Shown: one piece after another, positions 1 through 62,911 of the stretch | How the letters are laid out: the number at the start of each line of letters is the position of its first letter | How positions within the stretch are numbered: the stretch's first letter is position 1 | Made by a program: the position numbers and the translations under genes | NCBI GenBank assembly: GCA_031761875.1 | Contig: CP134492.1 | Location: forward strand, 372,001 to 436,000 | DNA length: 64,000 nucleotides | Source: Bacillaceae bacterium IKA-2 | GTDB lineage: Bacteria > Bacillota > Bacilli > Bacillales > Anaerobacillaceae | Direction: 5' to 3' | Notes under the pieces: generated by a model | Databases searched by the model: none | What the model was told of the DNA's origin: nothing | Seen by the model: the letters and a program-made list of their open reading frames with translations, nothing else

Positions 1-44
1 ATGCAGATTGGTGTGGCTAGTCTTTGGTATTATGAAATTCATTC
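1..44 (+). mobile_element. MITE-like element, right end (copy A)
   Basis: The window opens inside a copy of the short inverted-repeat element seen complete at 19427, 29681 and 31215. What remains is the GTGGCTA core and the right terminal repeat GGTATTATGAAATTCATTC, ending at 44 and followed by ATTT. The left end lies outside the window, so its target duplication cannot be tested. Confidence 0.7.
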
Positions 45-2378: not shown

Positions 2379-2474
2379 ACTGAATTTTATATTCATCGTG
2401 CCACTAGGTATTACTAGATAATACTAGAGAGCTTGATGTGGCTAATTTATTGGTATGATCAAATTGACTGAATT
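2379..2474 (+). mobile_element. degenerate MITE-like element (copy B)
   Basis: The stretch carries the element core (GTGCCACTAG, then GATGTGGCTAATTTATTGGTAT) in the same order as copies at 19427 and 31215, but both ends have diverged. It is bracketed by the octamer ACTGAATT at 2379-2386 and 2467-2474. It sits between the hydroxyacyl-CoA dehydrogenase and the first acyl-CoA dehydrogenase. Confidence 0.55.
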
Positions 2475-18570: not shown

Positions 18571-18723
18571 TTTTTATTGAAGTATTGCTTATCGACAAAA
18601 TTAAAGTTGCAAATAAGTAATTTAGTTGATATAATTTCGTCATGTGTAAAAATGGTGTTTTTAATTCGACACCTAAGTTAACTCTGTTTCGAATAGATTC
18701 AGGGCAAAAAGGAGATGAAAAGA

Positions 18724-19024: not shown

Positions 19025-19050
19025 AGAAACCCAAAGCGGTTAGGCATTCA

Positions 19051-19408
19051 TTGTCTAGCTCCAGCACTTACAAGCTAGGTCACTTCAGATCTTTGCAGAA
19101 GCCAAAAAGCGGCTTCTGTCAAAGTTCTTCCACCGCCTGACGCTTGTAAACAAGGTGCTGTCGCTTTTCATTGTCTAGCTCCAGCACCTACAAGCTAGGC
19201 CACTTCAGATCTTTGCAGAAGCCAAAAAGCGGCTTCTGTCAAAGTTCTTCCAGCGCCTGACGCTTGTAAACAAGGTGCTGTCGCTTTTCATTGTCTAGCT
19301 CCAGCACCTACAAGCTAGGTCACTTCAGATCTTTGCAGAAGCCAAAAAGCGGCTTCTGTCAAAGTTCTTCCAGCGCCTGACGCTTGTAAACAAGGTGCTG
19401 TCGCTTTT
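19051..19408. repeat. 120-bp unit in three tandem copies
   Basis: Copies start at 19051, 19171 and 19291 (TTGTCTAGCTCCAGCACYTA) with a period of exactly 120 bp and only a few base differences. Each folds well: outer CAGCACCT/AGGTGCTG, then ACAAGC/GCTTGT, then CAGAAGCC/GGCTTCTG around AAAAAGC. Single copies of TGTCTAGCT-CAGCRCC sequences are scattered in many Bacillus genomes. The array fills the rpmE2-tdk gap and has no coding capacity I would support. Confidence 0.93.
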
Positions 19409-19426
19409 CTACTAACACTTTTAGAT

Positions 19427-19504
19427 GAATGGATTTCATAATGGAGATTCAATGCCACTAGGTAGCTTGATGTGGCTAATATATTGGTATTATGAAATTC
19501 ACTC
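19427..19504 (+). mobile_element. MITE-like element, complete (copy C)
   Basis: 78 bp. Left end GAATGGATTTCATAATGG and right end GGTATTATGAAATTCACTC are inverted repeats; inside are GCCACTAG and GATGTGGCTAATA. It is flanked by AGAT at 19423-19426 and 19505-19508, a 4-bp target duplication. The right flank runs straight into the tdk ribosome site, so the element forms the tdk leader. Confidence 0.82.
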
Positions 19505-19520
19505 AGATTGGAGAATTTAA

Positions 19521-20147
19521 ATGCATTTAACAAGAAAAGAAGGCTGGTTAGAAGTCGTCTGCGGAAGTATGTTTTCTGGAAAATCAGAAGAGTTAATTCG
19601 TCGTGTTAGACGTGCTCATTTTGGTAAGCAAAAAGTAGAAGTGTTTAAGCCTGCTCTTGATAATCGATATAGTAGCGAAGAAGTAGTTTCCCACAATGGA
19701 ACAAAAGTAATTGCCAAATCATTAATGAGTTCACTAGAAATTTTAGATATTGTCGACTGCGATACTCAGATCGTTGCTATTGATGAAGTTCAGTTTTTTG
19801 ATGAGCAAGTTATTTCTGTTGTAGAAGCATTAGCTGATCAAGGAGTTCGGGTGATTGTCGCTGGTTTAGACCAAGATTTTCGTGGCGAGCCTTTTGGTCC
19901 AGTACCAAAATTAATGGCTCTGGCAGAATCGACTACAAAGCTTCAGGCCATATGTATGTCATGTGGTTCTCCGGCAAGTCGGACGCAACGTTTAATCGAC
20001 AACGAACCAGCTAATTACAATGATCCAATTATTTTAGTAGGCGCCTCAGAGGCGTATGAAGCAAGATGCAGGCATTGCCATGATGTTCCTGGTAAACCAA
20101 CAGAACTTAAAAAAGAATTAAAAAAATATCAAACCAACCTTAGCTGA
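19521..20147 (+). CDS. tdk: thymidine kinase
   Basis: A 208-residue type II thymidine kinase of the pyrimidine salvage pathway. P-loop GSMFSGKS (15-22), the DEVQFF Walker B/lasso region (about 89-94), [14 protein letters not shown], and a zinc ribbon from CMSCGS and CRHCHD are visible. Normal length. The ATG lies 17 bp downstream of MITE copy C, with TTGGAGA as ribosome site. The terminator overlaps its stop codon. Confidence 0.95.
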
Positions 20148-20159
20148 GGTTGGTTTTTT
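20132..20159 (+). terminator. terminator overlapping the tdk stop codon
   Basis: AACCAACCT (20132-20140) pairs with AGGTTGGTT (20147-20155), followed by Ts; the tdk TGA is at the loop. Confidence 0.93.
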
Positions 20160-20255
20160 GTTACTGGTTCGAAAGCCATGAATAACGGACTTTTTGAAAA
20201 TGCTCTTTAAGAAATTTTTTTAATTAATTGGGCACCCTAGTGGTAGGAGGTGTTA

Positions 20256-20705
20256 ATGATCAAAAAAGCATTTATGTTAGTTTTCGTTTTCATGATTAGT
20301 GCATGCTCACCAATAAATCCCCCAGAAGCAGGAACTGAAAACTCACCTGATGGAAATCGAATTGCTTTTGGATTATTAGGCCCTGGGCCGATTAATTATG
20401 GTGTCATTAGAGATGATGCAGATGAATATCGCTATGACGGTTTTATTAATCATGGTACTAGCTTTCGGACATTAGACAGTCACCGCCATGATTTGGGGGA
20501 TGACGAAGAGATCATTCGCGAGATCTTAAGCGAAGAACAAGGGGTCCAGCCTGGGACAATCTTTATAATTGGTAAAGACATTTGGGTAACAGCTAAATTA
20601 GACGTTGAAGATCAAAAAGAGCGGAAACAATTGCAAGCAGATTTACAAAAACTACTAACAAAAGTGATGCAGAAATATGATGTTCATTTACGCATTACCG
20701 ATTAA
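20256..20705 (+). CDS. putative lipoprotein of unknown function
   Basis: 149 residues starting at ATG 20256, chosen because TAGGAGG lies 5 bp upstream; an upstream GTG at 20250 overlaps that site. The first 17 residues form a lipoprotein signal with lipobox ISAC (Cys17), so the protein should be lipid-anchored outside the membrane. The rest is soluble, with a charged middle (DDADEYRYDG) and a C-terminal KL-x-VED...LQKLLTKVMQKYDVH segment vaguely like YhcN/YlaJ-type sporulation lipoproteins. I do not recognise it with confidence. It is flanked by terminators, so monocistronic. Confidence 0.8.
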   Translation: MIKKAFMLVFVFMISACSPINPPEAGTENSPDGNRIAFGLLGPGPINYGVIRDDADEYRYDGFINHGTSFRTLDSHRHDLGDDEEIIREILSEEQGVQPGTIFIIGKDIWVTAKLDVEDQKERKQLQADLQKLLTKVMQKYDVHLRITD

Positions 20706-20737
20706 AAAAAGTGAACTCATCTGGAGTTCACTTTTTT
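20706..20737 (+). terminator. terminator after the lipoprotein gene
   Basis: GTGAACTC (20711-20718) and GAGTTCAC (20724-20731) form a perfect stem with a 5-base loop, flanked by A-run and T-run. Confidence 0.95.
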
Positions 20738-20811
20738 GATTTTTTGGTATTCATTGATCAGATCATCATCGATTATATCACCAAAAAAATTTTGATCATT
20801 AATAATTAATT

Positions 20812-20840
20812 TTGACTATAGACTACAGTTATACTATAAT
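20812..20840 (+). promoter_or_regulatory. sigma-A promoter of prfA-prmC
   Basis: TTGACT (20812-20817), a 17-bp spacer and TATAAT (20835-20840), 35 bp before the prfA start. Confidence 0.85.
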
Positions 20841-20874
20841 TATAATGTTATGCTATAAAAAGAGGTGATTATCC

Positions 20875-21945
20875 GTGTTTGATCGATTACAGTCATTAGA
20901 AGACCGCTATGAAAGATTAAATGAGCTACTTAGTGATCCAGATATTATTAGTGATACAAATAAACTTCGTGAATTTTCAAAAGAACAATCACATTTAACA
21001 GGTACAGTTGAAGCTTATAAAGAATATAAAGAAGTCGTTACTCAATATAGAGACGCAAAGTCGATGCTTGAAGAAAAGCTCGATGACGAAATGTATGAAA
21101 TGGTTAAAATGGAAATGGGCGAACTTGAGGAAAGTAAAGAAGCGCTTGAGCAAAAGCTGAAAATTTTACTTTTACCTAAAGACCCTAACGATGATAAAAA
21201 CGTTATCGTTGAAATTCGCGGTGCTGCCGGTGGCGATGAAGCGGCGTTATTTGCTGGAGACTTATTTAAGATGTATTCTCGCTTTGCGGAGGCCCAAGGC
21301 TGGAAAACCGAAGTAATTGAAGCCAGTTACACAGAGCTCGGCGGATATAAGGAAATTGTCTTTACGGTTAACGGAACAGGTGCTTTTTCAAAGCTTAAGT
21401 ATGAAAATGGCGCACACCGTGTTCAGCGGATTCCCTCAACCGAAAGTGGTGGACGTATTCATACGTCAACAGCGACAGTTGCGATTTTACCAGAAGCAGA
21501 GGAAGTTGAACTAGAACTTCATGACAAAGATATTCGTGTTGATACGTTCTGTTCAAGTGGCCCTGGTGGACAAAGTGTTAATACAACCATGTCAGCAGTT
21601 CGCTTAACCCATATACCGACAGGAACAGTTGTATCATGTCAGGATGGAAAATCTCAAAATAAAAATAAAGATCAAGCAATGAAAGTATTACGAGCGCGTA
21701 TTTTTGATAAAATGCAGCGCGAGCAAAAAGCAGAGTACTCGGAAATAAGAAAATCAGCCGTTGGTACAGGAGATCGTTCGGAACGGATTCGTACGTACAA
21801 CTTCCCACAAAGCCGTGTGACCGATCACAGAATTGGTTTAACCTTACAAAAGTTAGACCAAATTTTACAAGGGAAAATCGATGAAATTATCGATGCATTA
21901 GTTGTTGAAGATCAAGCAAGCCTAATGCAACATGCGGACGATTAA
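20875..21945 (+). CDS. prfA: peptide chain release factor 1
   Basis: A 356-residue class I release factor reading UAA and UAG. The PST codon-recognition tripeptide (187-189, PxT of RF1) and the GGQ motif (231-233, in [10 protein letters not shown]) that triggers peptidyl-tRNA hydrolysis are both present, which separates it from RF2. The GTG start follows AAGAGGTGAT. Its stop overlaps the ATG of prmC (TAATG), so release factor and its modifying enzyme are translationally coupled. Confidence 0.97.
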
Positions 21946-22814
21946 TGAATCAAAAGCCACTGAAAATCTATGAAGCCCTAAGTTGGGCTTCTTCTTTTTT
22001 AACTGAACACGGCCAAGAACAACCAATCGCTGAAATCTTATTAAAACACTATTTAGGTGTAAATCGAACAAAGCTATTACAACAGCTTCAAGATGAACTG
22101 CCAAAAGAAATTGAAGAAAAAATAAAAGAGGCATTAAATAAAGTCGTAAAAGGTGTTCCTGTTCAGTACATTACCGGCCTCGAATATTTTTACGGGAGAC
22201 CTTTTTCTGTGAATCAAGATGTCCTGATTCCGCGCCCGGAAACTGAAGAGCTAGTGGAAGGATTATTAAAACGAATCAACCAGCATTTTTCTCATCTAGA
22301 GATGATCAATGTTGTTGATGTCGGAACAGGTAGTGGTGCAATTGCTATTACGTTGGCCTTAGAGAATCGAAAGCTAAACGTAATGACAATCGATATCTCA
22401 GCTAAGGCTCTCAAAGTAGCTCAACATAATGCTGAGCAATTAGCGGCTGAGCTTTGTTTTTTTGAAGGAGATCTACTAGAACCAATTTTAAAAATCAATA
22501 AAACCGTTGATGTAATTGTCTCAAACCCACCTTATATTTCAGAAGCTGACTTTAAAGTGTTAGCAGAAAATGTTCGCGATCATGAACCGAGTTTAGCCCT
22601 CATAGGTGGTGTTTCAGGGTATGAATTATATGAGCGTTTATTGAGTCAAATCCCTAGCGCAATTAATAAAAGAGCAATCATCGCCTTTGAAGTTGGTGTC
22701 GGTCAAAGTAACCAAGTTGAAAAACTTATAAAATCGCGGTTCCCGGAATCCGTAACTGAAATTGTCCATGATATTAACGGTAAAGATCGAATTGTATTTG
22801 CAACGTTAAGCTAG
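21945..22814 (+). CDS. prmC: peptide chain release factor N5-glutamine methyltransferase
   Basis: A 289-residue SAM-dependent methyltransferase that methylates the Gln of GGQ in release factors. An N-terminal helical domain precedes the Rossmann-like core with VDVGTGSGAIAI and the NPPY motif (VIVSNPPYIS) that holds the glutamine side chain. Start overlaps the prfA stop by one base. Complete length. Confidence 0.95.
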   Translation: MNQKPLKIYEALSWASSFLTEHGQEQPIAEILLKHYLGVNRTKLLQQLQDELPKEIEEKIKEALNKVVKGVPVQYITGLEYFYGRPFSVNQDVLIPRPETEELVEGLLKRINQHFSHLEMINVVDVGTGSGAIAITLALENRKLNVMTIDISAKALKVAQHNAEQLAAELCFFEGDLLEPILKINKTVDVIVSNPPYISEADFKVLAENVRDHEPSLALIGGVSGYELYERLLSQIPSAINKRAIIAFEVGVGQSNQVEKLIKSRFPESVTEIVHDINGKDRIVFATLS

Positions 22815-22929
22815 TTTGTTTATAACAATGGGGACAGACCGGCCGTTGTCGAGCCTGAATTGTCCTCAGTCACCTCCCGCAAACTGCTTTAAAAGCAAAA
22901 AAAATATTTAAAATTCATTCATAAGCCAC

Positions 22930-22959
22930 GTATATTTTCTCCAGCCCTTGTCGACAATG
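22930..22959 (+). promoter_or_regulatory. candidate sigma-F promoter of spoIIR
   Basis: GTATA (22930-22934), 15 bp, then GTCGACAATG (22950-22959) fits GywTA-N15-GgnrAnAnTw except at two positions. B. subtilis spoIIR is transcribed by forespore sigma-F, so the match is where it should be, about 25 bp before the start codon. Confidence 0.55.
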
Positions 22960-22984
22960 TCACTAAGAAGGGGCGGGGGAGAAA

Positions 22985-23569
22985 ATGAATCGAAAAGTAC
23001 TTATCTATATTATTACAAGTTTACTAGTTTTAGTAATGAGCTGGGAGGCTCAGCGCAGCATGACCGTTACGGCAGCAAACATCGTGACAATTCCTGAGGA
23101 AGCAATTCGGCTTAGAATTCTTGCTAACAGCGACTCGCCGAGAGATCAGTGGTTAAAACGAGAAATACGCGATAAAGTAAATGCTGAAATTACGGAGTGG
23201 GTATCCGATTTAAACTCGCTAGAAAACGCTAGAGAAACTATTGTAGCTAATCTAGATCAAATAGAACAAATAGTCAAAGCCGAACTTACTAGAGTTGGTA
23301 TCAATGAAAGTTTTAGTGTCGATTTTGATGAAGTTCAGTTCCCAACAAAGCTTTATGGAAACATGGTTTATTCAGCAGGTAATTATGAAGCGGTACTTAT
23401 TACAATTGGCACGGGTAAAGGCGAAAATTGGTGGTGCGTCTTATTTCCACCGTTATGCTTTATTGACTTTGCTAATGGGGATGCTGTTGAAGGAGAAGAA
23501 GATGGAGAAGTTGAAGTTCGTTTTTTCGTCTTTGAATTGTTCAATAAAGTAAAAAGCATCTTTTCGTAA
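22985..23569 (+). CDS. spoIIR: stage II sporulation protein R
   Basis: A 194-residue secreted forespore signal that triggers SpoIIGA-dependent processing of pro-sigma-E in the mother cell. An N-terminal signal or anchor (about residues 5-30) precedes the conserved core beginning IPEEAIRLRILANSDSPRDQ; FPTKLYGNMVYSAGNYEAVLITIG and ENWWCVLFPPLCFID are family signatures. It is shorter than the B. subtilis protein at the C-terminus. ATG follows GAAGGGGCGGGGG. Confidence 0.95.
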   Translation: MNRKVLIYIITSLLVLVMSWEAQRSMTVTAANIVTIPEEAIRLRILANSDSPRDQWLKREIRDKVNAEITEWVSDLNSLENARETIVANLDQIEQIVKAELTRVGINESFSVDFDEVQFPTKLYGNMVYSAGNYEAVLITIGTGKGENWWCVLFPPLCFIDFANGDAVEGEEDGEVEVRFFVFELFNKVKSIFS

Positions 23570-23687
23570 CAGTCGCTTTCATAAGCGATCAAGGTTCGTT
23601 GACTTAAAAATGATAGATTAAGGTAATATTCTTGCTTCCCCCTACATAGGTTAGTAGTACAAGCCTAATGGGTAAGGAGGAAGATTA

Positions 23688-24131
23688 ATGGGAATTATAA
23701 TACGGATAGCAACAGAAAAAGATTTATTACCAATTCAGCATTTATTGGCAAAGGCAGGTTCGTCCAAACAAGGGATTGAGCAAAATATTGATAACTTTCT
23801 CGTCGCTTGTGCCCCTGATAAAAAAATTATCGGTACAGTTGGTATTGAGCCATTAGGAAAAGATGGGTTGTTACGATCTTTAGTTTTATCGTCAGAAAGC
23901 TGGAATGCCAAAATTGGTTTAAATTTTATTGAACTGGCCGTTGCATTCGGAAAGCAAAAAGGTTTTCAGAAATTATACTTATTAACAAATACGTCATTAC
24001 CATTTTTCGAGTATGTAGGATTTAAGATAATGGATGAAGCAGAAATACCTGAATGCGTAAAGGCATCAAAGCACTTTTCTCAGTATGTTGAAGGTGTTAC
24101 AAAAGTGTTGGTATTATCCACAGAAGATTGA
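23688..24131 (+). CDS. GNAT-family N-acetyltransferase (YwlB-like)
   Basis: A 147-residue GNAT fold protein in the position of B. subtilis ywlB, between spoIIR and ywlC. The N-terminal IRIATEKDLLPIQHLL strand-helix, the VGIEPLGKDGLLRSLVLS strands, and LLTNTSLPFFEYVGFKIMDEAEIPE near the C-terminus match the ArgA-like N-acetyltransferase branch. The substrate is unknown; amino-acid acetylation is only a family suggestion. ATG follows AAGGAGGAAG. A possible weak promoter (TTGACT, 23599) lies upstream. Confidence 0.8.
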   Translation: MGIIIRIATEKDLLPIQHLLAKAGSSKQGIEQNIDNFLVACAPDKKIIGTVGIEPLGKDGLLRSLVLSSESWNAKIGLNFIELAVAFGKQKGFQKLYLLTNTSLPFFEYVGFKIMDEAEIPECVKASKHFSQYVEGVTKVLVLSTED

Positions 24132-24235
24132 TAATTAAAGAAAAAACCATCAACATGTAGACAAACCCTACTGCTTTGAAGTAAATTAATAGTATAGAAG
24201 TAAAAAAAATTAGTTTTCAGTCTTTTTATTAACAA

Positions 24236-24268
24236 GTTATCCACGGTCTGTGGGTAACTATTTTTATA
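24236..24268 (+). terminator. hairpin with T-rich tail upstream of ywlC; also two DnaA-box-like sequences
   Basis: GTTATCCAC (24236-24244) pairs with GTGGGTAAC (24250-24258, one G-T pair), followed by TATTTTTATATTTTT, so it may end transcription from spoIIR-ywlB. The arms read TTATCCACG and, on the other strand, TTACCCACA, each one base from the DnaA box TTATCCACA. Confidence 0.6.
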
Positions 24269-24319
24269 TTTTTCAAACTGTTCAAATCACTTGTAAGTAA
24301 ATGAGTTAGGAGCTGTTAA

Positions 24320-25363
24320 ATGAATACAAAAATCTGGACTGTTGCTAAAATTAATGATATTAACGCTATTTATCCACAAATTAAGGAAGCGGCCCTGTTA
24401 ATAGCAAATAATCAAGTTGTCGCCTTCCCGACGGAAACAGTTTATGGTCTTGGGGCTAACGCATATTCTGAGGAAGCCGTTGCCAAAATTTTTATTGCAA
24501 AAGGCAGGCCTAGCGATAATCCTCTTATCGTCCACATTGCTGAAAAGCGTCAATTGAAGCAGCTCGTAAAAGAGGTCCCGGCACATGCATCCAAACTAAT
24601 CGAAGCATTTTGGCCGGGACCATTAACGCTTGTACTAGAAAAAGGCGTAGGAATTGCTGAAAAAGTTACAGCAGGTCTTGCGACGGTTGCAGTAAGAATG
24701 CCTGACCATCCCGTTGCGCTTGCGTTAATTAAAGCTGCCCAAGTTCCAGTTGCTGCTCCTAGTGCAAATGTTTCTGGCAAGCCAAGTCCAACACTAGCAG
24801 ACCACGTTTATGAAGATCTTTTTGGGAAAATTTCAGGAATTGTTGATAGTGGTGCAACGGGAGTCGGAGTCGAATCAACGGTTGTCGATTGTACAGCAGA
24901 GGTTCCGATAATTCTACGACCTGGTGGAATTACGAGAGAGCAAATTGAAGAAGTAGTCGGTGTTGTTACTGTAGATCCTGCTCTTGAAGAAAACGACCAA
25001 GTTCCTAAATCACCGGGGTTAAAATATAAGCATTATGCACCTGTTGCCAGATTAATTTTAGTGAATGGTAGTCATCAATTTTTACAGCAGCAAGTGGCAA
25101 GAGCGAAACAGCAAGGTAAAAAAGTCGGTGTTCTGACAACTTTTGAAGGTCTTGGTGATTACCAAGCTGATCTTGTTTTACCCTGTGGCACAAACTCAAA
25201 AATCAGCACGACAGCTCATCACCTTTATGGAGTCTTGAGGAAATTTGATCAATTTGACTTAGACGTTATTTATAGTGAAGTATTCCCAGAAGCAGGAGTT
25301 GGTAAAGCAATCATGAATCGACTCATAAAAGCTGCAAACGGTGACGTTATTAGTGAATCTTAA
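24320..25363 (+). CDS. ywlC: L-threonylcarbamoyladenylate synthase (Sua5/YwlC)
   Basis: A 347-residue two-domain Sua5 protein making threonylcarbamoyl-AMP from threonine, bicarbonate and ATP for tRNA t6A37. The N-terminal YrdC-like domain has VAFPTETVYGLGANA, KGRPSDNPLIVHI, and VAAPSANVSGKPSPT; the linker LRPGGITREQIE leads to a C-terminal Sua5 domain starting near SPGLKYKHYAP. Essential in many bacteria. ATG follows TTAGGAG. Confidence 0.95.
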   Translation: MNTKIWTVAKINDINAIYPQIKEAALLIANNQVVAFPTETVYGLGANAYSEEAVAKIFIAKGRPSDNPLIVHIAEKRQLKQLVKEVPAHASKLIEAFWPGPLTLVLEKGVGIAEKVTAGLATVAVRMPDHPVALALIKAAQVPVAAPSANVSGKPSPTLADHVYEDLFGKISGIVDSGATGVGVESTVVDCTAEVPIILRPGGITREQIEEVVGVVTVDPALEENDQVPKSPGLKYKHYAPVARLILVNGSHQFLQQQVARAKQQGKKVGVLTTFEGLGDYQADLVLPCGTNSKISTTAHHLYGVLRKFDQFDLDVIYSEVFPEAGVGKAIMNRLIKAANGDVISES

Positions 25364-25376
25364 ATCGTTTTGGTGA

Positions 25377-25399
25377 TCGGATGAATTTCATTCAATCGG
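25377..25399. mobile_element. 15-bp palindromic remnant flanked by ATCG
   Basis: GATGAATTTCATTCA is bracketed by ATCG on each side (about 25376-25379 and 25395-25398). It matches fused ends of the MITE-like element with no interior. Confidence 0.5.
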
Positions 25400-25419
25400 T
25401 AAAAATAACAAATAAAGTC

Positions 25420-25462
25420 CCTAGTACATGCATAGGTTAGAGTAGCATGTACTAGGGGGGGG
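25420..25462 (+). promoter_or_regulatory. 12-bp perfect hairpin touching the mntP ribosome site
   Basis: CCTAGTACATGC (25420-25431) pairs with GCATGTACTAGG (25445-25456). The last two Gs of the stem are also the first of the poly-G ribosome site (25455-25462) just before the TTG start of mntP, so folding could limit ribosome access. No T-tract follows. Confidence 0.6.
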
Positions 25463-25466
25463 CCAA

Positions 25467-26024
25467 TTGTTAAATGAACTAATAGCTATAAGTATAATGG
25501 CTTTTGCGCTGAGTATGGATGCATTTTCCTTAGCGATTGGAATGGGTATGATCGGTTTACGATATAAACAAATCGTAAACATTGGAATGACAATCGGTTT
25601 ATTTCACGTAATTATGCCTTTTTTAGGAATTATCATTGGCAAGTTCTTATCGCAATATCTTGGGATGGTTACGATCTTTCTTGGTGGTATTTTACTATTA
25701 ATCCTTGGTGGACAAATGGTTAGTTCAGCACTTTTTTCTAACAATCAAGAATCGAAAATTTTAAAGCCAGTTGGTATGGGCCTTCTTTTCTTTTCTTTAA
25801 GTGTAAGTATTGATAGTTTTTCAGTAGGATTGAGCCTAGGGATGATGGGGGCAAAAACGATTGTTACGCTCATTAGTTTTGGATTAATGAGTATGGTGTT
25901 GTCATGGCTTGGCTTATTGATCGGTAAAAAAGTCGAAGGCTATGTTGGCAGATACGGGGAGTTATTGGGTGGTTGTATTTTATTAGCGTTCGGAATAAAG
26001 TTATTGCTCCTAAACATAATTTAG
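25467..26024 (+). CDS. mntP: MntP-family manganese efflux pump
   Basis: A 185-residue inner-membrane protein of the MntP family with about six transmembrane helices in two related halves. The conserved acidic residues sit in SMDAFSLAIGMG and SIDSFSVGLSLG, expected to carry Mn2+ out of the cell. It occupies the ywlD position of B. subtilis. The TTG start follows a run of eight Gs; no in-frame ATG is near. Function as Mn2+ exporter follows from the family and was not tested for this subgroup. Confidence 0.88.
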   Translation: MLNELIAISIMAFALSMDAFSLAIGMGMIGLRYKQIVNIGMTIGLFHVIMPFLGIIIGKFLSQYLGMVTIFLGGILLLILGGQMVSSALFSNNQESKILKPVGMGLLFFSLSVSIDSFSVGLSLGMMGAKTIVTLISFGLMSMVLSWLGLLIGKKVEGYVGRYGELLGGCILLAFGIKLLLLNII

Positions 26025-26188
26025 ACATATAATTTTTAGTTTCAAATTAAAATATGTGATAAAATAAATTCATCAAAAACTGTAATATAATAGTATTGGC
26101 ATTTGTTACAAAAGCGGGACAAGCAGATCGGCTTGCTTGATTACTGGGAGCTTTTGAACGGCCTTTAATTTGGAAGGGAAGTGCAGAG

Positions 26189-26647
26189 ATGGAGAGAATT
26201 CTTTTTGTATGTACAGGAAATACTTGCAGAAGTCCCCTTGCACAAGCTTTATTAAAAGAAAAGCGACCTGATTTTGAAGTCAAGTCAGCAGGAGTTAATG
26301 CATTACCGGGAATGAATGCTTCTGAGGGTACGATTCAAGTATTGGCAAAAAAGGGAATCAAGTTAAACCATGTTTCAAGTCAAGTAAATATTGAGTTGGT
26401 GGGTTGGGCAGACATTATTTTGGCATTAACAGAAGGTCATAAACAACAACTAATTAAAAATTTTCCGGGATTTGAAAATAAAATTTATACATTAAAAGAA
26501 GCTGCTTTTAAAGAAGAAGTAGAAAATTCGGAACAGAAAATATCATCGTTTAGCATTTCAGATCCTTTTGGCGGTTCAATAGAGGTTTATGAAAAGACAG
26601 CTAACGAGATCGAAACTACTATTGATAAGTTCCTTAAAAAACTGTAA
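26189..26647 (+). CDS. ywlE: protein arginine phosphatase (low-molecular-weight PTP family)
   Basis: A 152-residue LMW-PTP fold enzyme, the YwlE orthologue by position and motif. The P-loop CTGNTCRS has nucleophile Cys8, Arg14 and Thr12; that Thr (Thr11 in B. subtilis) favours phospho-arginine over phospho-tyrosine. The general acid is in SDPFGGSIEVYEKT. It counters the McsB arginine kinase that marks proteins for ClpCP. ATG follows GGAAGGGAAG. Confidence 0.93.
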   Translation: MERILFVCTGNTCRSPLAQALLKEKRPDFEVKSAGVNALPGMNASEGTIQVLAKKGIKLNHVSSQVNIELVGWADIILALTEGHKQQLIKNFPGFENKIYTLKEAAFKEEVENSEQKISSFSISDPFGGSIEVYEKTANEIETTIDKFLKKL

Positions 26648-26732
26648 ACCTTAAAAGTTTCTGATCAAAACTTACATGGCTTATTAGCCACCGCGCGAGA
26701 CGAAAACTAAGTCTAAAGTTTTCGTTACTGTA

Positions 26733-26759
26733 TAAAAAAAGGATAATCAGAGCCGAGAA
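26733..26759 (+). promoter_or_regulatory. candidate sigma-D promoter of the chemotaxis receptor gene
   Basis: TAAA (26733-26736), exactly 15 bp, then GCCGAGAA (26752-26759) matches TAAA-N15-GCCGATAT at ten of twelve positions. Sigma-D drives chemoreceptor and flagellar genes in Bacillus, so it fits the gene downstream. Confidence 0.75.
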
Positions 26760-26861
26760 GATTAGGTGCTTATGCTTTTCGCTGCTAGAAACAGTAAATA
26801 ATAGCGTATACATAGTTATCAGGTATGACAACCAATTAATGGAATGCAGGGGGCGCGTCGC

Positions 26862-28157
26862 ATGAGTAAGAAAAAGAGATATAAATTTAGTATTAGAAAG
26901 AAAATGGTAGTAGGTATTGCATCGGTAGCAGCAATTACATATGCAACAAGTGCTTTTTTTATCTTTTATTTAAGTGAAATATTAGGTTCAATGTTTGGGA
27001 TTAATGAAGATGTTTTTACAATAATTACGCTTTCATTAGGGGTGTTCTGGTGCGCACTTCTTGGATTTTTTGCTGCAGCTGTGATTACAAAACCGTTAAA
27101 TAGACTAGAAGCAGCATCGCGGAAAGTAGCAAACGGTGATATAAGCGTTGACGTTGTAGTTAATAAATCTGATGATGAGATTCGTGCCTTAGGTTTGGCC
27201 TATCAGGATATGGTTATAAATTTACGGGAAATGGTTTCAGACATAGGTACGAACTTTCAATTAACAAATGAAAAAGTAGACGAAATAAAAAATGCTTCTT
27301 CAGACGCGGCTATCCAAGCGGAAAAAATTGGACGGACAATAGATGAAATTGCCAGTGGTGCTGAAAGCTCAGCTAGTTCAATCCAATGTACTGCAGAATC
27401 TATGGAAGATGTTTCAAAGCTAGCAGATCAAGTTCAAGATCGTGCAAACGCATCAAGGCAGTTATCAATTGATATGGTAGCGACTTTAGCAGAAAGTAAA
27501 CAAATCATCCACTCACTTGTTACAGGAATAAACCAGTTAGCTAGTGACAATCAAAACTCGTTGACAGCTGTAAGCCGCTTAGAATCTCATGCAAAAAAAG
27601 TTGGTGAAATTATCTCGCTAGTAGGGGATATTGCTGAGCAAACAAATTTACTCGCCTTAAATGCTTCAATTGAAGCGGCACGAGCAGGTGAGCAAGGAAG
27701 AGGTTTTGCGGTGGTTGCTGATGAGGTTCGTAAATTAGCTGATGAAAGTTCAAAAGCTGTCCAAGGTATTTCTAAATTAATCAAAAATATCCAAGACGAA
27801 GTATCTAATGTTGTCACCCAAATCTCAGATCAAGTAAAAGTAGCAAATAAGGAAGCTTTAAAAGGCGCGAGCACAAATGAAGCGATTGCAGAAATGACAA
27901 ACTCAGTGACTGAAGTAGCTACTGCAGTTAAAGATATTACCGAGCTCGTTAATAGCCAGCTTAAGTCAATCAGAGCAACAACAACAGAATCTCAAGAAGT
28001 CGCGGCAATTGCCGAGGAAACATCAGCTGCAACAGTAGAAGTATCATCATCAGTCCAAACGCAAACGGCAGTAATGCAAGAAATTGCCGCTTCAGCAGAA
28101 ATTTTGTCTACTCAAGCAGGAGAACTACAAAAAACAATCGGCAAATTCAGAACATAA
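26862..28157 (+). CDS. methyl-accepting chemotaxis protein with minimal sensor loop
   Basis: A 431-residue chemoreceptor. Two transmembrane helices (about 15-37 and 52-76) are separated by only about 15 residues, so there is no extracellular ligand domain; a HAMP domain (about 73-126) and a full cytoplasmic coiled-coil follow, with the hairpin tip [28 protein letters not shown]. It likely senses a membrane or cytoplasmic state, or transmits from a partner. I start at ATG 26862, with AGGGGG 9 bp upstream; ATG 26844 has no ribosome site. The gene is inserted between ywlE and rpiB, which are adjacent in B. subtilis. Confidence 0.92.
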
Positions 28158-28395
28158 AAAAGTGGATAGTGGGAAAGTGGAAAAGTAGAAAAGTAGAAAG
28201 TGGGAAAGTAGAAAGTTGGAAAGTTGGAAAAGGGAAAGATAAAAGCTGAAAGCCCAGAGCGTAAAGCTGAAGGTCGAAAGCCAAACTGGATCTCCTAAAT
28301 TTTTTGAACTTCCTAACCAACTGTCCAACTAACCAACTTCCTAACAGTTCTTAATTTTTTTGAACTTCCTTTCCAACATTCCAACTTTACATACT
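28158..28395. repeat. polypurine GGAAAGTWGAAAGT tract with pyrimidine-rich partner
   Basis: From the mcp stop, about 75 bp of the + strand is nearly all purine plus T, in heptamers such as GAAAGTA and GAAAGTT; from about 28310 to 28390 the strand is pyrimidine-rich (CCAACTAACCAACTTCC, CCAACATTCCAACTTT), complementary to it. No gene is visible in this 261-bp gap. Confidence 0.8.
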
Positions 28396-28418
28396 ACTTA
28401 CTAACGGAGGTTTACATC

Positions 28419-28856
28419 ATGAAAGTAGCAATAGGATCAGATCACGGTGGAGTAAATATAAAAACAGAAATTAAATCATTAATGGATGAAATGAACATCC
28501 AGTACGAGGATCTAGGCTGCAATAGCGATGAGTCGGTTGATTATCCAGACTATGCCCGACCAGTGGCCTTAAAGGTTGTTAATGGTGAAGTAGATCTAGG
28601 GATTTTAATTTGTGGAACAGGTATTGGTATGAGTATTGCTGCTAATAAAGTAAATGGTATTCGCTGCGCGCTTGCTCATGATGTATTTAGTGCAAAAGCA
28701 ACGAGACTACATAATGACAGTAATATTCTCGCAATGGGTGAACGTGTTATTGGTCCTGGACTTGCAAGAGAAGTAGCGAAAGCATGGCTAGAAACAGAAT
28801 TTGAAGGTGGACGTCACGCTCGCCGTATTGCAAAAATAACTGAATTAGAAAAATAA
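28419..28856 (+). CDS. rpiB: ribose-5-phosphate isomerase B
   Basis: A 145-residue RpiB/LacB-family isomerase interconverting ribose 5-phosphate and ribulose 5-phosphate. AIGSDHGG at the start, the catalytic Cys in ILICGTGIGMSIAANK (about residue 66), and GIRCALAHDVFSAKATRLHNDSN are conserved. It corresponds to B. subtilis ywlF. ATG follows ACGGAGG. Confidence 0.94.
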   Translation: MKVAIGSDHGGVNIKTEIKSLMDEMNIQYEDLGCNSDESVDYPDYARPVALKVVNGEVDLGILICGTGIGMSIAANKVNGIRCALAHDVFSAKATRLHNDSNILAMGERVIGPGLAREVAKAWLETEFEGGRHARRIAKITELEK

Positions 28857-28904
28857 TTAATATCCACCAGCTTGATTATAATCGATCTGGTGGATATTAA
28901 TTAT
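28853..28904. terminator. 18-bp perfect inverted repeat at the rpiB stop codon
   Basis: ATAATTAATATCCACCAG (28853-28870) pairs perfectly with 28887-28904 around a 16-base loop that contains GATTATAATC. It starts on the rpiB stop. No T-run follows beyond the AT-rich stem end, so it could be a bidirectional terminator or an mRNA 3' end. Confidence 0.7.
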
Positions 28905-28943
28905 GTAGGTATCCATATCGTTATTTTTTAAAACATTAGAAAA

Positions 28944-28964
28944 TGAATGAATTTCATTCAAATG
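28944..28964. mobile_element. 15-bp palindromic remnant of the MITE-like element
   Basis: GAATGAATTTCATTC (28946-28960 allowing for the shared edge) is the two element ends fused, flanked on both sides by AAAT, as in copy E. No internal sequence remains. Confidence 0.55.
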
Positions 28965-28994
28965 TAAAATAAAAATTGAAAAGTCGGTGATTTG

Positions 28995-29576
28995 ATGGAT
29001 GCTAGCATAATTGAAAAAGAGATTTTTGAACAAGTTAGTCAAGGATTAGCGGATCTTCAAGAAAATATGTCTTTTCATAAAGATCATATTTTAGTAATCG
29101 GTACAAGTACGAGCGAAGTCATTGGTAAAGATATAGGTACAGCAGGAACAGAGAAAGTAGCCAGTGCTATTTTTCAAGCATTGCAAATTTTTCAGCAGAA
29201 AACAGGTGTACAACTAGCATTTCAATGCTGTGAACATTTAAATCGCGCTTTATTAGTTGAAGAAAACACACAAAGGAAATATAATTTAGAACAAGTGTCA
29301 GTCATTCCTGTTCCCGGGGCCGGGGGCTCAATGGCGGCTTATGCATATAAGCAACTAAAGACACCAGTAGTTGTTGAGTTTATTTCTGCTAATGCGGGTA
29401 TTGATATTGGTGATACACTAATAGGAATGCACCTAAAGCATGTTGCGATTCCTATTAGAAGTCGAGTGAAGCGAGTTGGTCACGCTAATCTTACAATGGC
29501 CACAACCAGACCTAAGCTTATCGGCGGAGGAAGAGCGCATTACATACCAGAAAATCAAGGTGGGAAATGTGAGTAA
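28995..29576 (+). CDS. ywlG: UPF0340 family protein YwlG
   Basis: A 193-residue protein of the YwlG/UPF0340 family (TIGR01440) with no settled function. Conserved segments include VIGTSTSEVIGKDIGTAGT, FQCCEHLNRALLVE, VPVPGAGGSMAAYAY, and HANLTMATTRPKLIGGGRAHY; the glycine-rich loops suggest ligand binding. I use ATG 28995; a TTG directly before it is also in frame. Position between rpiB and glyA matches B. subtilis. Confidence 0.93.
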   Translation: MDASIIEKEIFEQVSQGLADLQENMSFHKDHILVIGTSTSEVIGKDIGTAGTEKVASAIFQALQIFQQKTGVQLAFQCCEHLNRALLVEENTQRKYNLEQVSVIPVPGAGGSMAAYAYKQLKTPVVVEFISANAGIDIGDTLIGMHLKHVAIPIRSRVKRVGHANLTMATTRPKLIGGGRAHYIPENQGGKCE

Positions 29577-29599
29577 GATTAAGGCTGGCAGGAAATCTA

Positions 29600-29623
29600 A
29601 GTAAATGAATTTCATTCAAGTAA
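29600..29623. mobile_element. 15-bp palindromic remnant flanked by AGTA
   Basis: AATGAATTTCATTCA (29604-29618) is bracketed by AGTA on each side. Same interpretation as the remnants at 25377 and 28944. It lies 60 bp before complete copy D. Confidence 0.5.
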
Positions 29624-29680
29624 CAGAAAATTAGTTTTTGTGTTAAAATCTAAAGAAATAACTTTAATGAATTAGTATAC

Positions 29681-29797
29681 GAATGAATTTCATAATACCA
29701 AAACCTAGCCACATAAATCTATATCTAGTTGAAGATGTTTTAATTCAACTAGATATAGCATCCTAGTGGTGTAGAAACTGCATTATGAAATTCATTC
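29681..29797 (-). mobile_element. MITE-like element, complete, reverse orientation (copy D)
   Basis: 117 bp, in the opposite direction to copies C and E. Ends GAATGAATTTCATAATACC and GCATTATGAAATTCATTC; flanked by ATAC at 29677-29680 and 29798-29801. It is longer than the others because it holds an extra hairpin, TATATCTAGTTGAA (29720-29733) against TTCAACTAGATATA (29744-29757). Its edge is 22 bp before the glyA start. Confidence 0.85.
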
Positions 29798-29818
29798 ATA
29801 CGAAAGGGAGATTCTAAA

Positions 29819-31060
29819 ATGGAAAAGCTAAGAGAACAGGATCCACAACTTTATAAGGCAATGCAGGACGAGTTATCAAGGCAACGAGACAAAATTGAAT
29901 TAATTGCCTCAGAAAATTTTGTTAGCGAAGCAGTAATGGAAGCACAAGGGTCAGTACTAACAAATAAATATGCTGAGGGTTATCCTGGCAAGCGTTATTA
30001 TGGCGGTTGTGAACACGTCGATATAGTCGAAGACATTGCAAGAGATCGTGCAAAGCAAATATTTGGTGCAGAGCATGTAAATGTTCAACCACATTCAGGT
30101 GCTCAAGCAAATATGGCTGTCTACTTTACTATTTTAGATCATGGTGACACGGTACTAGGCATGAACCTTTCCCATGGTGGCCACTTAACACACGGTAGCG
30201 CAGTTAACTTTAGTGGGGTTCAGTACAATTTCGTGGAATATGGTGTAAATGAAACCGACCAACTTATTAACTATCAAGATGTTTTAGATAAAGCAAGAGT
30301 ACATAAGCCGAAACTAATTGTAGCAGGAGCAAGCGCTTATCCAAGAGCGATTGACTTCAAAAAATTTCGCGAAATTGCTGATGAAGTAGGCGCATATTTC
30401 ATGGTAGACATGGCTCATATTGCCGGTCTTGTTGCAGCGGGTGAGCACGAAAACCCAGTTCCATATGCTGACTTTGTCACAACAACTACGCACAAAACAC
30501 TTCGTGGCCCTCGTGGCGGAATGATTTTGTGTAAGCAAGAGTGGGCAAAAAAGATTGATAAATCGATCTTCCCTGGTATTCAAGGTGGACCATTAATGCA
30601 CGTCATCGCAGCTAAAGCAGTCGCCTTTGGTGAAGTGCTAGAACCTGAATTTAAGCAATATGGACAACGAGTCCGTGCAAATGCTAGTCGTTTAGCTGCT
30701 AAGCTTATTGCAGAAGGAATTAACCTTGTTTCTGGGGGAACGGACAATCATCTTGTCCTTATTGATCTTCTTAGCTTAGATTTAACAGGAAAAGTCGCTG
30801 AAAAAGCATTAGATGATATTGGTATTACTACAAATAAAAATACGATTCCATTTGATCCACAAAGCCCATTTGTAACGAGCGGAATTCGGATCGGTACAGC
30901 TGCGGTCACTTCACGCGGCTTAGGATTAGACGATATGGATGAAGTCGGTGCGATCATTGCCTTAACCCTAAAAAATAGTAATGATGAGACAAAATTAGCC
31001 GAGGCAAGCGAGCGAGTAACTGCTTTAATGGGAAAACATCCTTTATACGCAAACCTATAA
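29819..31060 (+). CDS. glyA: serine hydroxymethyltransferase
   Basis: A 413-residue PLP enzyme interconverting serine plus tetrahydrofolate and glycine plus methylene-THF, the main one-carbon source. The LIASENFVS folate/PLP block (about 28-36), [11 protein letters not shown] (88-98), and the PLP-binding Lys226 in [14 protein letters not shown] are present. Normal length; ATG follows AAAGGGAG. Its leader is formed by MITE copy D. No PurR box or riboswitch was visible upstream. Confidence 0.97.
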
Positions 31061-31074
31061 GTGTCTGTTTAAAT

Positions 31075-31120
31075 TAATAGCACAAAGAGCGTTTAGATAG
31101 ACCGCTTCTTTGTGCTATTA
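31075..31120 (+). terminator. strong hairpin after glyA
   Basis: TAATAGCACAAAG (31075 on) pairs with CTTTGTGCTATTA (to 31120), with AGCG/CGCT continuing inside after a one-base offset. The tail is AT-rich (TAATGTTATAAATT) rather than a clean T-run, so terminator activity is likely but not certain. Confidence 0.75.
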
Positions 31121-31214
31121 TAATGTTATAAATTACCCCTTGAAGAATCAACCACTTTTATGTAGAATCTTGAAGAGCAAGCATAGCGAGTGGCATTTTA
31201 AGTAAATAGTAAAT

Positions 31215-31300
31215 GAATGAATTTCATAATGCAGATTCTGCGCCACTAGATTAGATTGATGTGTTATGTGGCTAATATAATGGTATTATAAAATTTATTC
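31215..31300 (+). mobile_element. MITE-like element, complete (copy E)
   Basis: 86 bp with ends GAATGAATTTCATAATGC and GGTATTATAAAATTTATTC, core GCGCCACTAG and ATGTGGCTAATATAATGG. Flanked by AAAT at 31211-31214 and 31301-31304. It lies in the upp leader, 44 bp before the start. Confidence 0.85.
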
Positions 31301-31344
31301 AAATAGAGAAAATTTCCATTAGAGAATAGGAGCGTTTACACAAA

Positions 31345-31974
31345 ATGAGTAAAGTATTTGTTTTTGACCATCCATTAATTCAACATAAGTTAACGTACAT
31401 AAGAGACATCAGGACAGGGACAAAAGAATTTCGTGAGCTTGTTGACGAGGTTGCCGCGTTAATGGCTTTTGAAATCACTAGAGATTTACCACTTCAAGAT
31501 GTAATGGTGGAAACACCTGTGGGACCGGCCCCGTCAAAAACGATCGCTGGAAAAAAATTAGGCTTAGTACCAATTTTACGAGCAGGTTTAGGAATGGTAG
31601 ATGGAATTTTAAAATTAATTCCAGCAGCAAAAGTCGGACATGTTGGTTTATATCGTGATCCTGAAACATTAAAACCAGTTGAATATTACGTGAAGCTTCC
31701 TACTGATATAGAAGAGCGTGATTTTATTGTTATTGATCCAATGTTAGCGACAGGTGGATCAGCGACAGAAGCGATCAACTGTTTAAAAAAACGTGGCGCC
31801 AAAAATATTAAGCTTATGTGCTTAATCGCCGCACCAGAAGGAGTAGAGGTTGTCCAAAAAGAACATCCTGATGTTGATATTTACTTAGCTGCTATGGACG
31901 AAAAATTAAATGAAAAAGGCTATATTGTCCCAGGCCTTGGCGATGCCGGTGACCGCCTTTTTGGAACGAAATAA
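31345..31974 (+). CDS. upp: uracil phosphoribosyltransferase
   Basis: A 209-residue UPRT that salvages uracil with PRPP to UMP. The PRPP loop is [13 protein letters not shown] (about 130-142) and the C-terminal uracil-binding [16 protein letters not shown] block is complete. ATG follows ATAGGAGCG. The glyA-upp order with atp downstream matches B. subtilis, except for the protease gene inserted after it. Confidence 0.96.
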
Positions 31975-32152: not shown

Positions 32153-32169
32153 ATGTTGTGGCACGATAA

Positions 32170-32360
32170 AGAGAGGGAAAGTAGAAAGTAGAAAGGTGGA
32201 AAGGTGGAAAGGTGGAAAGGTGGAAAGGAAAAATGAAAGTTCACAACTTCACATGGTGCCTGACACCATGTGAAGTTGTGAACAAAAAAGCTGGACGGTA
32301 GTTCTTAAAGCTTTTGACCAATCCTTCCATCCTTCCAACTTTCCCCCATCCAACTATTTA
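32170..32360. repeat. polypurine GGAAAGGT tract with pyrimidine partner
   Basis: GGGAAAGTAGAAAGTAGAAAGG then four repeats of TGGAAAGG (32190-32228); CCTTCCATCCTTCCAACTTTCC near 32325 is the complement. Same family as at 18455, 28158 and 61245. Confidence 0.8.
32239..32283. repeat. REP-like palindrome, 20-bp stem with CCTGA loop
   Basis: GTTCACAACTTCACATGGTG (32239-32258) and its exact complement at 32264-32283 enclose CCTGA. The central GGTGCCTGACACC is shared with copies at 55422, 55631 and 62755; the outer arms differ between copies but remain self-complementary. Confidence 0.92.
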
Positions 32361-52498: not shown

Positions 52499-52513
52499 GT
52501 GTTGTCTTTTAAA

Positions 52514-52629
52514 GTGACTGACACCATGTGGAAACTTCACATGGTGTCAGTCACCTTTCATCAAGTTTGTGAAAATAAAAGCGTGTGCTTATCGTATTCT
52601 TGATCGAAATTCACAAGGTGTCAGGCACC
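52514..52629. repeat. REP-like palindrome pair after nuoN
   Basis: GTGACTGACACCATGTG (52514-52530) pairs perfectly with 52538-52554 across a 7-base loop; each arm is itself a CACATGGTGTCAGTCAC copy. A further single core GGTGTCAGGCACC is at 52617-52629. The rest of the 445-bp nuoN-ywzB gap shows no gene. Confidence 0.88.
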
Positions 52630-52889
52630 AAAAGTGGACGCTACTTTACGGCAACGAACCAATCCTACTGAGAAATGGATAGTTATTCCAACAAATTAAA
52701 ATTTAAAGGGATGGATTTTTTCGTTGAGATTCGTTATTATAGAGACTGTGCCCTTTTCTATAAGGAATTATTCAAAAAAGTGGTAAGATCCAAACAATTA
52801 TTTTAAAGAGTTACACGAAAAAGGTGCTGTCATTAGTTTTGGCTACAATTAGCCTACTTAGGGCAACTGGAATAAGGAGATGACTACAT

Positions 52890-55406: not shown

Positions 55407-55434
55407 CACCAAACTCAAATTGGTGCCTGACACC
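55398..55434. repeat. REP-like cores overlapping the murA stop codon
   Basis: GGTGGCTGACACC (55398-55410) includes the murA TGA (55404-55406); a second core GGTGCCTGACACC follows at 55422-55434. CACCAAACTCAAATTGGTG between them forms a hairpin. Confidence 0.85.
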
Positions 55435-55460
55435 AAAAGAGAATGTTTGTGAAATTAAAT

Positions 55461-55508
55461 AAAAATCGACTTTCGTGTGAGTATAGATGCACAAAGGTCG
55501 GTTTTTTT
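55461..55508 (+). terminator. terminator after murA
   Basis: AAATCGACTTT with TGTG pairs with CACA and AAAGGTCGGTTT (G-T pairs allowed), followed by seven Ts. Confidence 0.8.
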
Positions 55509-55846
55509 GATTCTAAACGGGTATTAACTAGCTCTACCAAGGGATTAGGCGTTAGATAGATTCCTCCCTGATCATGAAATCCTGCTTGATATTATTCCAT
55601 CTCGCTCCGTCGATTGTGCAAACTTCACATGGTGCCTGACACCAAGTGTAAAAATCGGTTCTATTTTACGACATCTGAAGTTGCTCACGTAGCACCTTAG
55701 ATTATCGAAACTCTCATTTAGTTTTCGAATCTCTCGAAATCAAGGTCTATTTTCTAGCAATATTGCATAAACTGCATAGAGAAAACTGATAATGCGAGTA
55801 TCCTCTACAAATCGAATCAGAAAACAAAAATGGAGGCGTCAACTTT
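55509..55846 (+). other. murA-spoIID intergenic region
   Basis: 338 bp with one REP-like core GGTGCCTGACACC (55631-55643) within TTCACAT-core-AAGTGTAA. A sigma-E promoter is expected for spoIID; CAATATT near 55765 resembles a -35 but I could not find a convincing -10 at the right distance. Confidence 0.6.
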
Positions 55847-60419: not shown

Positions 60420-61372
<953 letters not shown>

Positions 61373-62744: not shown

Positions 62745-62911
62745 CTTTTTGTTTGGTGCCTGACACCAAACAAAAAGTTTGTGAAAATCCATTTCCCATC
62801 ACCAAAGCATTATGGCGCATAATTCACATGGTACCTGACACCGCTCGTGGACAAATTGCCAAAATGTCCGCGTCTCGCGGACGTCACAAACCCAACTTCG
62901 TGTCTGACACC
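62745..62911. repeat. cluster of REP-like elements upstream of fabZ
   Basis: A palindrome CTTTTTGTTTGGTG (62745-62758) with complement 62764-62777 around CCTGA; a second core GGTACCTGACACC (62830-62842); a third GTGTCTGACACC (62900-62911). CCGCGTCTCGCGG at about 62868-62880 is another small hairpin. Confidence 0.88.

Follow-up and report, generated by a model that had tools for sequence, protein, structure and literature searches.

Are the short repeats that lie upstream of several genes in this stretch of DNA transposed elements and, if so, which enzyme moved them and what became of them afterwards? The stretch, referred to as the window, is the 64,000 nucleotides at bases 372001-436000 of the single-contig genome (4,424,890 bases, 4.42 Mb) of Bacillaceae bacterium IKA-2, a member of the genus Anaerobacillus by its kin. 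We consider it very probable that the repeats form a new family of miniature inverted-repeat transposable elements (MITEs) with a partner insertion sequence of an IS1182-like type. The copies have defined ends and 4-bp flanking duplications, they occur in large numbers, empty sites exist in relatives, and partner elements with the same end also carry 4-bp duplications.

A family of intergenic elements with 4-bp target duplications

A first-pass annotation had described three complete copies in the window (78, 117 and 86 bp), each between a different perfect 4-bp repeat, and all three were recovered with these positions and flanks. It had also called two further copies, A and B, partial or decayed; this holds for copy B, while copy A is complete and merely cut by the start of the window. 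The copies and their target duplications are as follows.

1..44, + strand: copy A, right-hand portion of a complete 117-bp copy (genome 371928-372044) with duplication ATTT/ATTT
2379..2474, + strand: copy B, decayed; inner motifs still recognisable, ends eroded, duplication unclear, fold z -0.93
19423..19426: left target duplication AGAT
19427..19504, + strand: 78-bp MITE copy, form without inner hairpin, stopping 16 nt 5' of a tdk-like open reading frame (ORF; start 19521)
19505..19508: right target duplication AGAT
29677..29680: left target duplication ATAC
29681..29797, - strand: 117-bp MITE copy with inner palindrome, located in what is presumably the glyA 5' leader (ORF 29819-31060)
29798..29801: right target duplication ATAC
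31211..31214: left target duplication AAAT
31215..31300, + strand: 86-bp MITE copy, located in what is presumably the upp 5' leader (ORF 31345-31974)
31301..31304: right target duplication AAAT

The sequence GAATGAATTTCATAAT matched the window 12 times at up to 3 mismatches (mean 2.4, maximum 8 in 100 shuffles). At up to 2 mismatches it matched the whole genome 182 times forward and 175 times in reverse, while its reversed pattern gave 6 and 10 matches. A covariance model built from 26 copies, with at most 150 candidates scored per genome, gave at least 148 matches at E <= 0.01, or 144 distinct places once both-strand hits were removed. A search by paired ends added 22 further copies, for at least 166 element places in the genome. 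Copy B was in neither the covariance-model list nor the paired-end set. Pairs of full-length copies were also observed directly adjacent in the same orientation (L101 1483-1721; genome 3066553-3066792).

To the paired-end set we admitted copies with both ends recognisable (at most 4 mismatches each and 6 in all), giving 131 copies of 65-173 bp, most of them 75-80, 115-118 or 143-144 bp long. By length class, 34 copies were of 72-90 bp (18 with perfect duplications), 59 of 113-122 bp (26), 20 of 138-150 bp (10) and 18 of other lengths (9). Tabulated genome-wide, the 4-bp flanks were perfect duplications in 63 of the 131 copies (mean 4.2, maximum 13 when left flanks were shuffled against right ones 500 times), with one mismatch in 35, two in 15, three in 13 and four in 5; perfect 3-bp and 5-bp duplications (5 copies and 1 copy) stayed at the shuffle level. 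The perfect duplications comprised 26 different 4-mers of an ANNT-like form, with A first in 53 and T last in 50 of the 63. Mismatches in the ends and in the duplications rose together (Spearman 0.32, p 1.7e-4), the mean number in the duplication being 0.5 in copies with 0-1 end mismatches (n=38) and 1.6 in those with at least 4 (n=29), as expected from insertion followed by decay.

No ORF of at least 90 aa contains any of the 131 copies; with that ORF caller, 17% of the window is intergenic. The family is short and non-coding, with terminal inverted repeats, duplications of constant length and variable sequence, and many intergenic copies that vary between relatives. Near glyA and upp no promoters or terminators were found in the element beyond the shuffle level, and near tdk the one terminator-like site lies outside it. 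Rfam covariance models gave no match at the element, the sole match in the window being the L31 leader (18682-18714), and none within loci L048 and L019 up to E 0.5. The MITE matched nothing among plasmid and phage sequences, and TTGGTATTATGAAATTCATTC had 0 matches in a contig collection that may leave out this genome and very near ones.

Probable partner insertion sequence

At 65-173 bp the copies are too short to code for a transposase. As the first-pass annotation had stated, the window holds none with these ends: tblastn with the partner protein described here gave no match in it. Across 397 genomes of the order, GARTGAATTTCATAATRC (at most one mismatch) was matched in 63, of which 56 were among the 390 outside the genus (reversed control, 11). 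A recurrent variant, GAATGAATTTCATAATTC, is one end of an insertion sequence, and this 18-bp left end is exact in all five distinct elements for which both ends were found. Further elements were found on plasmids, where tblastn with the partner protein matched 282 records, five or six of them at about 58-60% identity. The partner elements, with their flanks, are listed below.

L266: 1564 bp, AAAT/AAAT
L283: 1562 bp, AGTT/AGTT
L251: 1499 bp, AAGT/AAGT
L285: 1573 bp, AACT/ACCT
L267: 3980 bp, ATAT/ATAT, with IS66 genes inside
Plasmid, Alkalihalophilus pseudofirmus OF4: 1567 bp, ACTT, perfect
Plasmid, Priestia megaterium: 1557 bp, ACGT, perfect
Plasmid, Sporosarcina psychrophila: 1566 bp, AACT, perfect
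Plasmid, Planococcus lenghuensis: AATT/ATTT
Plasmid, E. hirae: protein at 39% identity, CAAT/AATT

Seven of these 10 elements have perfect 4-bp duplications, all of the form A..T, two have one mismatch and one has two. The A. pseudofirmus OF4, P. megaterium and S. psychrophila elements have recognisable ends, with 2-3 mismatches in the left 17 bp. The first-pass annotation had suggested looking for a full transposon with matching ends; such elements, which also make 4-bp duplications, were found intact only in other genera.

The partner transposase ORFs are 447-454 aa long with DDE_Tnp_1 and DUF772 matches; P0001, the 450-aa protein of L264/L266, also matches DDE_Tnp_1_6 and is 62% identical to the L283 protein. 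NCBIfam IS1182 was the best family for each partner transposase tested, with its cut-off of 270 bits passed by one of the five (L283, 296 bits; P0001, 231; L285, 236; L339, 250; L337, 252), and the Sporosarcina transposase is named 'IS1182 family transposase' in RefSeq. No relative of the transposase was found among PDB sequences. The IKA-2 genome has only two DDE_Tnp_1 matches, at L185 and L190. The second belongs to a decayed partner copy (L190/L286, genome 492674-493707, 1034 bp, AAGT/AAAT), whose ends are still recognisable with 2 and 4 of 18 positions mismatched; its protein match, at 45% identity, spans residues 191-395 and contains 9 stops. Since the sole transposase copy found is decayed, the MITE family is probably now inactive in this genome, unless an intact copy was missed.

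Other candidates for the partner were rejected. L185, which is intact and IS1182-like and lies next to an istB-like ORF, lacks ends of this kind; 30 transposase loci had no convincing end pair; and five viral contigs matching GARTGAATTTCATAATRC had no close-set pair of ends.

We propose that the element is non-coding DNA with two ends recognised by a transposase (left GAATGAATTTCATAATGC, right GGTATTATGAAATTCATTC) and that, judging from the sequences compared, a transposase of the IS1182-like DDE type sharing the terminal 16 bp would have inserted it in trans at ANNT-like intergenic sites, with a 4-bp duplication. Several observations weigh against this proposal. Movement of the element was not observed in this analysis. 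The agreement between MITE and partner is restricted to the terminal 16 bp, the exact-end partner elements lie in other genera, and the partner right ends differ (GATC or GACTC-type tips). The partner-element scan covered 33 loci, of which only the 5 distinct elements had both ends and 8 were cut by contig ends. In 33 of the 131 copies the duplication has at least two mismatches, and the requirement for two recognisable ends had removed decayed copies before this count. Agreement limited to the termini is usual for MITEs (PMC3852290).

The combination of partner and IS66 genes was an additional observation: in the copies looked at (L267-L271, L250; G260) the IS66 genes lie near the left end. 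Because the whole of L267 has an ATAT/ATAT duplication, the combined element may move as one unit. A 266-bp element with a similar end (GAGTGAATTTCATAATGG) and AATA/AATA flanks was seen at L254 1501-1766 (G091), where the end-variant search gave 6+15 hits; it may represent a further structured MITE family. Short elements with ends of this kind and perfect 4-bp duplications were also seen at L255 1501-1657 (AATT), L256 1289-1518 (GATT) and L211 971-1091 (CATT, Cerasibacillus terrae). A sub-threshold match in Rfam to the small RNA (sRNA) tsr24 of Staphylococcus aureus (34.8 bits, gathering threshold 50) overlaps the L256 element, and some reported sRNAs might be related to such repeats.

Empty sites and distribution in relatives

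The same-genus genomes, numbered G000 (IKA-2 itself) to G006, include Anaerobacillus alkalilacustris DSM 18345 (G004), A. arseniciselenatis DSM 15340 (G005) and an Anaerobacillus metagenome-assembled genome (G006). The glyA and upp copies are each preceded by a conserved promoter-like sequence and followed by the ribosome-binding site. With the element and one duplication copy removed, both leaders align with the A. alkalilacustris leaders, and the upp leader also aligns with that of G001; the G003 upp leader did not align with the element-free IKA-2 leader. G003 and G002 have elements of their own at other positions in the glyA and upp gaps, and the gap before tdk is element-free by inspection in four relatives (G001-G004). 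These empty sites, together with the genome-wide duplications and the partner elements, support the first-pass reading of the copies as transposed elements.

The covariance model found matches in all 6 other genus genomes, 27 to at least 150 in each (at least 150 in G005). The 21-bp right end (at most 2 mismatches) was present in 5 of these 6 genomes and in none of 34 from other families in the order. The MITE ends in the relatives are TAATGAATTTCATAAT and ATTATGAAATTCACTC. Among 44 copies from relatives, which include a few doubtful members (e.g. L098, L241, L244) and the Cerasibacillus copy L211, 16 have perfect duplications and 22 have at most one mismatch. The family was not found in the literature searched, a weak absence as only open-licence papers were covered. 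G003 was also seen to have 130 DDE_Tnp_1 matches, many in identical groups, against the 2 of IKA-2 at a similar genome size.

Nested palindromes

Pairing within the element was examined in an alignment (A3) of the 59 copies of 113-122 bp and in a second (A4) of 30 of the 44 relative copies, chosen by length, with one reversed by eye. The inner stem (15 pairs, columns 41-55 with 66-83) had 42 double-change cells in IKA-2 compared with 10.2 in shuffles, and a covariation of 0.203 compared with 0.109, a value reached by 0 of 500 shuffles; with the partner slid by 1-3 columns the double-change cells fell to 7-15. In the relatives there were 45 such cells, against 13.7 shuffled and 2-13 slid, and pair 46-81 was UA in 14 copies, CG in 9 and AU in 7, never unpaired. 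The outer arms (16 pairs) had 4 double-change cells versus 2.6 shuffled (reached by 131 of 500) and a covariation of 0.034 versus 0.029; two of five measures taken on the terminal repeats were marginally raised (19 and 23 of 500 shuffles). Outer pair 1-124, the outermost, never pairs in the relatives. This pattern indicates that the outer arms are kept as sequence and the inner arms as pairing.

G-U and A-C cells were nearly equal in the inner stem (35 vs 29 in IKA-2, 10 vs 8 in the relatives), and transversions made up 13 of 39 Watson-Crick double changes in IKA-2 and 30 of 45 in the relatives, both of which count against selection at the RNA level in one orientation. Between closest copy pairs, 18 changes were single, 1 was a paired double and 2 were other doubles. 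Hairpin-less copies with one common junction have their own duplications, so the inner stem is not needed for insertion.

The covariation shuffles ignore relatedness, and subfamilies common to the copies inflate the double-change counts. On trees built from other columns, pair-type changes in IKA-2 were almost unstructured (17 and 19, shuffled 20.4 and 21.4) and in the relatives they were clustered (4 to 8, shuffled 12.7 to 14.6), and independent inner-stem double changes may be fewer than counted.

We infer the origin of the inner stem, as of the scars described below, from these comparisons. Copies decay with age after insertion, and the inner palindrome of the 113-122 bp form has been lost repeatedly to give forms of 75-90 bp. 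In lineages retaining it, pairing is maintained while the sequence changes, most likely through palindrome maintenance in propagating copies by template-switch correction or selection.

Probable fifteen-base scars

The 15-bp sequence GAATGAATTTCATTC consists of two element tips joined, and it has 45 exact occurrences in the genome. At up to one mismatch RAATGAATTTCATTC gave 72 and 68 matches; its reversed pattern gave 3 and 2. We consider these sites probable scars of near-precise excision. The window holds one, plus one-base variants, and the two with perfect flanks fall within the span covered by the first-pass annotation, unremarked there.

28945..28959: probable 15-bp scar GAATGAATTTCATTC, between AAAT (28941-28944) and AAAT (28960-28963)
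29603..29617: probable 15-bp scar AAATGAATTTCATTC, between AAGT (29599-29602) and AAGT (29618-29621)
25379..25393: possible scar, one base changed (GGATGAATTTCATTC), flanked by GATC/AATC

Flanks were read at 56 places, comprising 45 exact sites, 9 with A first and 2 GAGTG; a tenth A-first place, which forms the left end of a resident copy, was excluded, while L416, in a resident 173-bp copy, was counted. Perfect 4-bp direct duplications surround 32 of the 56 and one-mismatch duplications 12, with none of 5 bp (shuffles mean 2.7, maximum 9); for the 45 exact sites the numbers are 29 and 8 (shuffled perfect mean 2.4, maximum 9). The scar repeats have A first in 25 and T last in 27 of 32, matching the target bias of the MITE, and inverted-symmetric flanks occur at only 2 of the 56 places. 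ATGAA and TTCAT are the two longest direct repeats between the element ends and predict the 15-bp product and its reverse complement. Whole elements were most likely lost by deletion through slippage between these 5-bp repeats, leaving 15 bp.

Some results count against this origin. The relatives have 0-1 scar site each, 5 exact GARTGAATTTCAYTC sites in all, none with a perfect duplication. Their predicted slippage product, TAATGAAWTTCACTC, was found at 15 places (11 in relatives, 4 in IKA-2) with 1 perfect duplication (G005) and 2 of one mismatch, and most of the other places resemble right ends of ordinary copies. A 14-bp product predicted from a 4-bp repeat was searched for and none was seen. 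Four of 31 scar sites tested lie in stop-free runs of at least 90 codons, three of them without a perfect duplication, and some exact sites are therefore probably due to chance.

Weighing of alternative explanations

The element could instead be primarily a structured regulatory RNA, a leader hairpin of tdk, glyA and upp spread and kept for gene control with mobility secondary, which we regard as improbable. All three window copies do sit just upstream of ribosome-binding sites, and by inspection the promoter-like sequence upstream of the glyA and upp elements is conserved in relatives; the distance to the next start peaks at 20-40 nt (18 of 142), the inner stem covaries, a missing Rfam match does not exclude a regulatory RNA, and the MITE-like bcr1-bcr3 repeats of Bacillus cereus are often transcribed in untranslated regions (PMC3446304). 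These points are offset by relatives in which the element is missing from these sites or lies at another position in the gap, and by an orientation that varies with respect to the gene (+ for tdk and upp, - for glyA). Most of the inner stem is absent from 34 of the 131 copies, and the G-U counts and the mostly one-sided changes between closest pairs also count against this reading.

A reading of the 15-bp sites as operators of a DNA-binding protein, or as an unrelated short repeat, would fit their form, a perfect 7-bp palindrome around one base, as well as the 16 of 45 exact sites without perfect duplication, the exact sites without perfect duplications in relatives and the few sites in long stop-free runs. 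We find it very improbable, since an operator has no reason to lie between direct repeats, as 29 of the 45 exact sites do, with few inverted-symmetric flanks and the A..T bias of MITE targets. A stronger competitor, still unlikely in our estimate, is that the scars are real and were made by the transposase through imprecise excision with trimming and end joining. It would account for the abundance of scars in IKA-2 only (45 exact, 0-1 per relative), for the poor showing of the relatives' predicted product (1 of 15) and for the unseen 14-bp product; replication slippage is favoured over it by the ATGAA and TTCAT repeats, from which exactly this 15-bp sequence and its reverse complement are predicted, and the literature consulted gave no precedent for a transposase footprint at this position.

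Within the preferred MITE explanation, we advance one extension tentatively and with more doubt than belief: that the two nested palindromes follow different rules, the outer read as sequence by the transposase and the inner kept as a palindrome, whatever its sequence, by hairpin-templated (template-switch) correction during replication and not by RNA function, and that the same fold-back destroys the element. The inner hairpin would be lost first, and slippage at the tips would then leave the 15-bp scar between the duplications. If true, the birth of MITEs, the repair of their palindromes and their near-precise loss could all be read from the genome, which would have about one scar per four to five resident copies.

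A large non-coding repeat family on which annotation would be silent now has a probable transposase, and its ends and duplications provide a means of linking related MITEs of other Bacillales to this enzyme. Two features merit further attention, the covarying inner palindrome and the 15-bp scars. In the inner stem, palindrome correction can be tested against selection on RNA in a natural setting. Of greater use are the scars, as the loss of mobile elements from bacterial genomes is usually inferred from absence, while here probable losses are individually marked by 4-bp duplications.

Comparison with known systems

IS1272 is a member of the IS1182 family. On insertion it takes the place of an inverted repeat at the target without producing a duplication (PMC5678879). 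The partner elements differ in making 4-bp duplications, perfect in 7 of 10, and showed no palindrome replacement, a feature that may not define the whole IS1182 family.

Nearly precise excision of Tn10 and Tn5 is a deletion between short direct repeats near the ends, helped by inverted repeats, that leaves part of the ends. That is an experimental event, whereas here dozens of presumed products would be fixed in one genome.

The bcr1-bcr3 repeats of the Bacillus cereus group are intergenic and MITE-like, with up to 130 copies of bcr1 per genome (PMC6542083, PMC3446304) and a stem-loop structure (PMC2267715). The present family resembles them as a short, structured, intergenic repeat of the Bacillales. 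However, the parts of these sources consulted tie bcr mobility to a TTTAT motif and name no partner transposase, whereas our family has other ends, a variable ANNT-like 4-bp duplication and an identified partner. The TTTAT motif was not found at its ends or targets, where perfect duplications are ANNT-like and 5-bp ones occur in 1 of 131 copies.

Intergenic inverted repeats on Borrelia plasmids keep stem pairing through double transversions, e.g. C-G to A-U (PMC2674063), and are similar in their compensatory stem changes. Duplications, transposase-matched ends and scars, all found in the MITE family here, are not described in the portion of that source consulted.

Other repeats in the window

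Three 120-bp head-to-tail repeats of 98% identity lie between rpmE and tdk (19047-19409). A second dispersed palindromic repeat, around GGTGYCTGACACC, was observed at 32239-32283, 52511-52634, 55395-55648 and 62752-62847, and intergenic arrays of AAAGTAGAAAGTTGG-like units at 28127-28252, 32154-32240 and 61233-61369.

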